Source of the DNA: Lachnospiraceae bacterium
GTDB lineage: Bacteria > Bacillota > Clostridia > Lachnospirales > Lachnospiraceae
DNA length: 64,000 bases
Assembly (NCBI GenBank): GCA_017615545.1
Contig: JAFZZY010000047.1
Coordinates: 62,001 to 126,000, forward strand
Direction: 5' to 3'
In this document: positions 42,704 through 45,302 of the stretch, piece after piece
How positions within the stretch are numbered: the stretch's first letter is position 1
How the letters are laid out: each line of letters opens with the position of its first letter
Made by a program: the position numbers and the translations under genes
The notes under the pieces: generated by a model
Database searches by the model: none
Told to the model about the DNA's origin: nothing
The model's input: only the letters and a program-made list of their open reading frames with translations

Positions 42704-43639
42704 ATGCAAATTCGACATTTTTTAAGTCCTTCGGATCTGTCGGAGGCAGAACTGGGCCGTCTGCTCACGTTAGCGGGCGAGATCATGGCTAACCCGGACG
42801 CTTACGCTCACCTCTGTGACCGCAAGAAGCTGGCTACCCTCTTCTACGAGCCGAGCACGCGCACCCGCCTCAGCTTCGAGGCAGCGATGCACAACCTCGG
42901 CGGCAGCGTCATCGGTTTCTCCGATGCATCGCAGAGTTCTGCAACGAAAGGCGAAAGCGTTTCCGACACCATCCGAATCATCAGCTGCTACGCCGACATT
43001 TGCGCCATGCGTCATCCGAAGGAAGGCGCGCCCATGGTCGCAGCCGGTAAATCCGGAATTCCCGTGATCAATGCAGGCGACGGCGGACACCAGCACCCGA
43101 CCCAGACATTGACCGATCTGCTCACGATCCGTGAGTTGAAGGGCCGTCTGGATCACCTGACCATCGGTATGTGCGGCGACCTGAAATTCGGCCGTACCGT
43201 TCATTCCCTGATCAACGCGATGATCGTCTACCCGAACGTATCCTTCGTCCTCATCTCGCCGAAGGAACTGCGCGTTCCGGACTACATTCGTAAGAACGTC
43301 CTCCAGGACAACAACATCCCGTTCGAGGAGGTCACCAACCTGGAAGAAGCTCTTCCGAAGCTCGACCTTCTGTACATGACCCGCGTTCAGCGTGAGCGTT
43401 TCTTCAACGAGGAAGAATACATCCGAATGAAGGACTCTTACATCCTGGACCGCAAGAAGATGGAACTGGCGCCGCAGGATATGCTCGTCATGCACCCTCT
43501 TCCCAGGGTCAATGAGATCTCCGTCGATGTCGACGACGATCCCCGTGCCGTTTACTTCAAGCAGGTTCAGTACGGCGTGTACGCACGCATGGCGCTGATC
43601 CTGATCCTTCTGGGACTCGACCCGGGTAAACCGCTGTAA
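42704..43639 (+). CDS. pyrB: Aspartate carbamoyltransferase catalytic subunit
   Basis: 311 residues. [20 protein letters not shown] is the carbamoyl-phosphate site; [23 protein letters not shown] and [12 protein letters not shown] follow, and the aspartate loop contains [11 protein letters not shown]. It condenses carbamoyl phosphate and aspartate, the committed step of UMP synthesis. The regulatory subunit pyrI is encoded 3.9 kb downstream rather than adjacent, so this is a class B (PyrI-associated) enzyme with separated genes. Confidence 0.97.
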
Positions 43640-43744: not shown

Positions 43745-43773
43745 TTGCCAAACTACCCCTTCCGTGCTATAAT
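43745..43773 (+). promoter_or_regulatory. Promoter of the C39-like peptidase leader RNA
   Basis: TTGCCA (43745-43750), 17-nt spacer, TATAAT (43768-43773). The predicted start near 43780 coincides with the first base of the P1 stem of the leader RNA. Confidence 0.8.
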
Positions 43774-43779
43774 TTATTG

Positions 43780-43943
43780 CGTGTGCAGCATGATCGAAAA
43801 ACAGCATATCCTACAAATCCATCTAGCTTAGCGTTTCCTTGATTCAACTGCTAAGCATATAATATGCTGTCGTGACGACCAAAATCACGAATAGGAGGGA
43901 ATAATTAAATGCACACGATTTAGCTACTCCCATGGCAGCTAAA
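43780..43943 (+). ncRNA. Structured leader RNA of unknown class (riboswitch-like or stand-alone ncRNA)
   Basis: All stems are perfect: P1 CGTGTGCA (43780-43787) with TGCACACG (43910-43917) closes a multi-branch region; P2 ACAGCATAT (43801) with ATATGCTGT (43862-43870) encloses P3 GCTTAGC (43826) with GCTAAGC (43850); P4 CGTGA / TCACG is 43871-43889; P5 TTTAGCT / AGCTAAA is 43919-43943. The P5 loop ACTCCC can pair with GGAGGG (43894-43899) as a pseudoknot. A tiny frame with a strong ribosome site (ATG at 43909, four codons) lies across P1. The C39 gene starts 64 nt after P5. I could not match it to a named riboswitch. Confidence 0.6.
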
Positions 43944-44006
43944 ACTCTAATATGAAAAGGGATCATTGATTCCCGATCAAAACAAGAAAAGAAAGGAAGT
44001 AAGAAA

Positions 44007-45302
44007 ATGTATCAAAAAACAAGAGGAAAAATGTTCACCCGCCTTAAGAAGGCTCTCGTCTTCGTTCTGGTCCTGGCTCTCATTCTGCCGACCATGCCCG
44101 TTTCCGTTCAGGCCGCAGAAGCAGTCTCAATTCCTGTGCCCTATATCAACCAGGGAAACTACAACACAAGTTTCTATAATAAAAACGGTAAATTAGTATA
44201 CAACAAAGACAAAACGCCAAAACCTGCCACAGTTAAGATCAGCGGCTGCGGAGCTGCAAGTAGTGCCATGGTCATCAGCTACTACTTAAATCTCAAAGGC
44301 TCGGTATTCAGCCCTGATATCCTATTTCAAAGAGCTATTGACCACGGAGACTATCAAGGTAATGGTCTCAATCATGCGGGTGTTTCTTACATCTGTTCTA
44401 CGGTCTCCGTTAATGTAACTTGGACTTCTTCCGTAAAAGAAGCGATCAGTGCTCTTAAGGAAAACCGCCCCGTTATAGCCAACGTTGGAGAGAGCGTATT
44501 CACTACTTGGAAGCATTATATTGTTCTGACCGGCTACAAGAAAGACAATAACGGAAATGAATATTTCCAGGTAAATGATCCTAATCATACCAAGTATAAC
44601 AGAACTTGGGTTTCCAAAAGCACAGTAACTAAAGCGATATTAAGCAGTGGCTACGGCATTACAAAATACTCTCCGATCAAAAGCGTGACAGCAGGCGCCT
44701 TCATGGCAAATCGAAAGCTGACTACCGGAAGTGCATGCAATATCTTCGGTTATGCTTATTCCAATACCAAACTCAAGGAAGTGACGGGCCAGATCCTGAA
44801 TTCTTCCGGCACTGAAGTTCAGGCTTATACAGTTTACCCCAATGCGAACTACTGTGATCTGAAGTCTTCCGATATCAATAAGTATTTGACATTCGGAAGT
44901 CTTGCTGCAGGAAGTTACAAGCTCAAGATCACTGCAAAAGACAGTAATGGCACCGTTACGAAGACCGTCGATTTCACGGTCACTGCTGCTGCCAAGTTGA
45001 CCGGTAGTGTCTCTATGGCTACCACATCGATCAAAAAAGGAAAAGCATGCAATATTTCAGGCACCATCAAATCTGGAAGTAAGATCACAAACGTAACAGG
45101 TAAGATCATCAACTCTTCCGGAAAGGCTGTACAAACTAAGAGCATTTCTCCGAACGCCACTTCGGTTAATCTGAAAACATCAGCGATCAACAAGAACCTG
45201 AAATTCGGAAAACTAGCAAAGGGAAAATATAAGCTTCAGATCACCGCAAAAGATGCGGCCGGAAACAACTTTAGCAAAACCATAAGTTTTACGGTAAAGT
45301 GA
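44007..45302 (+). CDS. Secreted C39-like cysteine peptidase with two repeats
   Basis: 431 residues with a signal peptide (basic start, hydrophobic LVLALILPTMP, cleavage near VQAAEA). The peptidase domain (about 38-220) has Cys in SGCGAASSAMVIS, His in WKHYIVLTGY and Asn/Asp in FQVNDPN, the C39_2 pattern. Two C-terminal repeats of about 100 residues (225-325, 330-431) share GSACNIFG/GKACNISG, VTGQILNSSG/VTGKIINSSG and SYKLKITAKD/KYKLQITAKD, like repeats found on secreted clostridial proteins. Target is unknown. Lower G+C than its neighbours and insertion between pyrB and pyrI hint at acquisition. Confidence 0.85.
   Translation: MYQKTRGKMFTRLKKALVFVLVLALILPTMPVSVQAAEAVSIPVPYINQGNYNTSFYNKNGKLVYNKDKTPKPATVKISGCGAASSAMVISYYLNLKGSVFSPDILFQRAIDHGDYQGNGLNHAGVSYICSTVSVNVTWTSSVKEAISALKENRPVIANVGESVFTTWKHYIVLTGYKKDNNGNEYFQVNDPNHTKYNRTWVSKSTVTKAILSSGYGITKYSPIKSVTAGAFMANRKLTTGSACNIFGYAYSNTKLKEVTGQILNSSGTEVQAYTVYPNANYCDLKSSDINKYLTFGSLAAGSYKLKITAKDSNGTVTKTVDFTVTAAAKLTGSVSMATTSIKKGKACNISGTIKSGSKITNVTGKIINSSGKAVQTKSISPNATSVNLKTSAINKNLKFGKLAKGKYKLQITAKDAAGNNFSKTISFTVK

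Follow-up and report, generated by a model that had tools for sequence, protein, structure and literature searches.

The best explanation for the region studied here is that it forms the untranslated 5′ leader of a gene that is transcribed on its own and encodes a secreted C39-like/Ig-like protein. By analogy with known systems, this leader most likely acts as a 5′ mRNA stabiliser of the aprE/STAB-SD kind, a reading to which we assign a probability of roughly 0.4. The window, the 64,000-nucleotide stretch of DNA that was analysed, lies on contig C18 of a 2.47-Mb Lachnospiraceae genome (G000) whose nearest relatives are metagenome-assembled genomes from the rumen or omasum; its organism presumably also comes from the rumen. 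A pyrB-like gene (PF02729/PF00185) lies upstream of the leader; its end is at 43639, with a visible hairpin (ACAGGCTCCG...CGGAGCCTGT) behind it, which makes a transcription unit of its own likely for the leader.

An earlier note, made from the sequence alone, had proposed a folded 5′ leader before a secreted C39-like peptidase, had found no match to known RNA classes by eye and had called for an Rfam scan. That scan (4227 covariance models, including riboswitches and large clostridial RNAs) matched only tRNAs at the gathering threshold, and a permissive scan gave a best weak match of 15.3 bits against a threshold of 47. Scans of the orthologous and related leaders likewise returned no family. 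Together with the Peptidase_C39_2 match of the downstream protein, these results bear out a folded leader outside Rfam in front of a secreted protein.

Transcription is predicted to start from a near-consensus promoter, the only strong one of the stretch (Table 1). Its quality (11 of 12 consensus positions) agrees with the earlier note, which had also placed the RNA start exactly at the 5′ strand of the closing stem P1; this second point is a prediction from the promoter position, which puts the first base of P1 near +1 or +2 and would make it a 5′-terminal stem. All of the elements named in the note are present at their coordinates: four perfect stems, the downstream hairpin P5, the GGAGGG and a four-codon frame behind it. 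The GGAGGG lies 107 nt before the ATG at 44007, and so is a Shine-Dalgarno-like (SD-like) leader sequence that does not serve the main start codon, as in a STAB-SD.

Table 1. Features of the leader and its gene in the window.
Feature	Position	Strand	Remark
Sigma-A-type promoter: -35 TTGCCA (43745-43750), 17-nt spacer, extended -10 TGCTATAAT (TATAAT, 43768-43773)	43745..43773	+	11/12 consensus; conserved at 5 orthologous loci
5′ leader, 228 nt	43779..44006	+	predicted start ~43779-43780, from -10 position
Genus-wide 5′-terminal element CGTGTGCA-N4-GATCGAAA	43780..43799	+	first 8 nt = P1 5′ strand
P1 5′ strand CGTGTGCA	43780-43787	+	pairs with TGCACACG; also first 8 nt of 5′-terminal element
P2 ACAGCATAT/ATATGCTGT	43801-43809 with 43862-43870	+	directly after GATCGAAA; p = 0.003
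P3 GCTTAGC/GCTAAGC	43826-43832 with 43850-43856	+	not found in orthologues
P4 TCGTGA/TCACGA	43870-43875 with 43885-43890	+	in G299 and G300 another hairpin, with GGAGGG in its loop
GGAGGG, SD-like, candidate ribosome-binding stabiliser	43894..43899	+	AGGAGGG in window, G299 and G300; AGGTGG in G302
Mini-ORF ATG CAC ACG ATT TAG (M-H-T-I-stop)	43909..43923	+	orthologues lack an ATG here
P1 3′ strand TGCACACG	43910..43917	+	6-8 nt complement kept in 4/4 complete orthologous leaders, +60 to +134
P5 hairpin TTTAGCT/AGCTAAA, loop with ACTCCC	43919-43925 with 43937-43943	+	directly 3′ of P1; same place, other letters in G299 and G300
Hairpin GGGATC/GATTCCC before RBS	43959..43974	+	stronger in G299 (GGGGATC/GATCCCC)
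RBS AAAGGAAG of C39-like gene	43992..43999	+	unpaired in predicted fold
Secreted protein, 431 aa: signal peptide, Peptidase_C39_2, Ig-like repeats	44007..45302	+	PF13529, E = 9.3e-14

The statement that the leader holds far more structure than expected by chance proved too strong. A 142-nt fold has a predicted energy of -33.3 kcal/mol, a value equalled by 5 of 200 shuffles (z -2.2), and the 228-nt fold is likewise only modestly better than its shuffles (z -1.7; 12 of 200 as good). Individual stems are rarer than chance, with p values of 0.0035 for P1, 0.003 for P2 and 0.0096 for P5. A contact between the P3 loop (TTTCCTT, 43834-43840) and the RBS AAAGGAAG is possible in the window only; it was not seen in relatives and we set it aside.

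Three sister species, G302, G299 and G300, have orthologues of the C39-like protein with about 50% protein identity, and G073 carries a truncated copy; all genomes compared are draft assemblies of tens to hundreds of contigs each. Across the four complete leaders, including that of the window, the promoter and the first ~25 nt (GCGTGTGCA-N4-GA(T/G)CGA) are nearly invariant, while the sequence from +25 to the gene is mostly unalignable. Each leader nevertheless carries a perfect complement to its own 5′ end: 8 nt at +132 in the window (shuffle p = 0.0035), 8 nt at +60 in G302 (p = 0.0025), 7 nt at +128 in G299 (p = 0.010) and 6 nt at +134 in G300 (p = 0.18), values that cannot simply be multiplied since the four leaders are related by descent. 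P5 follows P1 in three of the four leaders as a hairpin of 6-7 bp (from the outer pair, TTAGCT/AGCTAA, GTTGTT/AACAAC and GCTGCT/AGCAGC), and in a hand alignment of the three, four of six pairs are changed on both sides. AGGAGGG is likewise found in three of the four leaders, either unpaired or in a hairpin loop, the latter formed by AATGTGT/ACACATT and AATATGAA/TTCATATT in G299 and G300.

Covariation, named in the earlier note as a check, thus gives a divided answer: P5 shows compensatory change in three leaders, P1 persists over widely varying distances with the sequence of its pairing strands invariant, and the internal stems P2-P4 could not be aligned between the sister-species orthologues and are not conserved. 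The G302 leader is only 105 nt long and keeps little besides P1, lacking both GGAGGG and P5. The proposed pseudoknot between GGAGGG and the P5 loop can form in the window but is lost in the orthologues, where the loops (ACTCCC in the window) read CCTGC and CGTAC and the hairpin is absent from G302; we therefore rejected it as a conserved feature. The four-codon frame met the same fate: it is present in the window, but the relatives have no ATG there, and it does not qualify as a conserved leader peptide. A whole-leader DNA similarity search of 299 family genomes gave only short chance matches, and a search of viral contigs for a relative of the secreted C39-like protein found none. Wider relatives of the protein are too distant for a shared leader to be expected. 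In G073, the C39 gene on contig C74 seems to have been reduced through internal deletion: the promoter and ~30 nt of leader run straight into the last Ig-like repeat, and an open frame of 92 aa is left.

The 5′-terminal element is found well beyond the C39 genes. Across six genomes of the genus, the exact pattern TAAT-N2-7-CGTGTGCA occurs at 17 sites, against 6 for the reversed pattern, and 12 of the 17 look like promoters with a gene behind them. Five of these precede C39 genes, four precede other secreted-protein genes (G300 C7, G300 C33, G073 C44 and G299 C26), two precede ECF sigma genes (G000 C29 and G073 C4) and one a secreted protein of G301; most of the 12 carry GNNCGA 3-4 nt beyond CGTGTGCA. 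This list was compiled iteratively by matching to the C39 leaders and is therefore biased toward the element. A sequence model built from 13 sites (R2) matched strongly in the genus only, and an earlier model (R1) run on 348 family genomes gave no convincing match outside it; the extra-genus matches to promoter models that were inspected (L133-L138, G008 and G001), some of them in coding sequence, look like chance or like ordinary promoters of other genes and were rejected. Outside the C39 leaders, leaders with the 5′ element mostly lack a P1 partner, so conservation of the P1 5′ strand is no evidence for P1. On contig C28 of G299, the leader of a related secreted-protein gene lacks CGTGTGCA but has the exact complement TGCACACG, some 20 nt from the leader's start.

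In several leaders a stem stands directly behind GNNCGNAA, at the same place as P2 (ACAGCATAT/ATATGCTGT) in the window; in the C39 leader of G300 it reads TAGCCTGTT/AACAGGCTA, and before other secreted-protein genes (class B) it is built around ATAGTATATACA/TGTATATTCTAT. Pairing holds for 83% of cells across seven class-B leaders in the true register, compared to 24-62% with the strands slid, and four pairs show changes on both sides. The shuffle control was only partly passed (12 of 500 shuffles for the pairs, 52 of 500 reaching the covariation score). The set is small, at seven sequences, and the structure was selected on that very set, so this evidence for the class-B stem is suggestive only.

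How might such a leader act? Under the stabiliser reading, the transcript would begin with the conserved initiating sequence folded back into P1, making the 5′ end poorly accessible to 5′-end-dependent RNases. Behind P1, the hairpins P2, P4 and P5 together with GGAGGG would block RNase J-type movement; GGAGGG could bind the 30S subunit, and in this species the mini-ORF behind it may help hold ribosomes. The real 5′ end, 30S binding and a longer mRNA half-life are inferred parts of this model. In B. subtilis, long downstream mRNA is stabilised when a 5′ hairpin, an RBS or a bound protein lies close to its 5′ end (PMC3997798). A STAB-SD blocks RNase J1 (PMC4113751). Among the reports cited in PMC3997798, one concerns the aprE leader and another a mini-ORF whose RBS protects an mRNA. 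The B. subtilis aprE mRNA reportedly likewise starts with a 5′ stem-loop and encodes a secreted protease, and its stability determinant is the stem-loop plus ribosome binding, not translation. The window leader differs from aprE in being longer and multi-stem, of unrelated sequence, and in having an internal SD-like site apart from the gene's own RBS. The STAB-SD of Bacillus thuringiensis cry3A is likewise an SD-like purine run that is not used for the main gene start, and is a proposed 30S-bound block to RNase J1; the GGAGGG of the window, by comparison, has stems ahead of it, sits ~115 nt into the leader and is followed in this species by a four-codon frame; it is lost in G302.

Several observations fit the stabiliser reading: stems persist while sequences drift, no terminator is present, the main RBS is free, and relatives retain the promoter with the first 25 nt, P1, P5 and, in three of four, GGAGGG. 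A terminal stem, an SD-like site and drifting hairpins are as expected of a 5′ stabiliser. Against it stand the loss of GGAGGG and P5 in G302, the weak 6-bp P1 of G300, a fold only modestly better than chance and the conservation of the 5′ element in leaders without a P1 partner; something besides P1 selects for this element.

That the element recurs before unrelated genes makes two other explanations serious rivals. It may be a genus-specific cis-regulatory RNA, in which CGUGUGCA-N3/4-GAUCGAAA and the following stem are recognised by a protein or small RNA and co-regulate surface-protein genes and an ECF sigma operon, with P1 able to mask the element in C39 leaders. We consider this possible, though on balance unlikely. 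It would account for the 12 promoter sites before such different genes and for the stem and pairing register behind the element. Moreover, both the distance to the -10 (5-6) and that separating the two blocks (3-4) can differ by a single base, and such play is easier to reconcile with RNA than with a rigid DNA site. On the other hand, there is no other conserved core, members are few per genome, one ECF leader (G000) is only ~40 nt long and has no stem, and the shuffle control for the covariation score is weak. CsrA binds GGA in hairpin loops and would be a natural candidate regulator, but its family (PF02599) is missing from all six genus genomes, while control genomes gave matches; we rejected a CsrA-regulated leader. 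Alternatively, -35 to +25 could be conserved at the DNA level, for initiation or for a DNA-binding regulator over +1 to +25, with the stems incidental. GCGTG at the start after TATAAT, seen across the genus at many unrelated promoters (43 sites versus 9 in the reversed control), points this way, and part of the conservation of the element may reflect start-site preference; the G299 site is also a perfect dyad (ATATTGC-GTGT-GCAATAT). Because this dyad is lost in most members, and the retained P1 3′ strand, the changes in P5 and GGAGGG are left unexplained, we regard a purely DNA-level feature as improbable.

That the leader is a new kind of metabolite riboswitch, a possibility raised in the earlier note, is highly improbable. 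A multi-stem leader without an Rfam match before a secreted protein might recall c-di-GMP riboswitches, which are known in a secreted-protein setting in C. difficile (PMC6366702). As in the Clostridioides difficile cases, the leader is folded and the protein that it precedes is secreted or surface-related, but the leader lacks both a covariance-model match to any riboswitch and a conserved aptamer. No terminator was found in a scan of the leader, no masked RBS in the predicted fold and no conserved aptamer core across homologous leaders. P2-P4 are unalignable even between sister species, the short G302 leader holds little besides P1, the upstream frame and pseudoknot are lost in relatives, and no convincing match exists outside the genus among the 348 family genomes. 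Without an Rfam family, terminator, masked RBS or conserved core, this reading is not supported.

The recurrence of the element turns one odd leader into a testable group, in which the same first 20 nt open unrelated surface-protein and ECF sigma mRNAs, within one rumen genus for which metagenome-assembled relatives are the only ones known here. If the stabiliser reading holds, it would extend the aprE/STAB-SD principle to Lachnospiraceae; if the element is regulatory, it would mark an unknown post-transcriptional regulon. A rather doubtful proposal of the latter kind is an undescribed leader-RNA family of this one rumen Lachnospiraceae genus, in which CGUGUGCA-N3/4-GAUCGAAA and the stem would co-regulate secreted Ig-like proteins, the C39-like peptidase and an ECF sigma factor, and the P1 3′ strand could switch the element off in C39 leaders.

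Other leaders of the genus showed features of their own. The ECF sigma factors (L211-L240) form a large paralogous family with 4-12 matches per genome, and a recurring ECF-type promoter of the form TGTAAGGTTT ... TATAGGTGAAAGGC stands before many of their genes, a hint of autoregulation. A different leader hairpin, TTCCGGCGTGGGACGGAA, lies ~50 nt or less from the start of four secreted/Ig-like genes of G300 (C99, C22, C64 and C106); it has no Rfam match, and within the genus exact copies occur only in G300. Finally, a leader on contig C75 of G073 starts with GCGTGTACC and carries a 16-bp perfect hairpin (ATGAACATGTTTATGC/GCATAAACATGTTCAT) before a 1,938-aa open frame (z -5.5).
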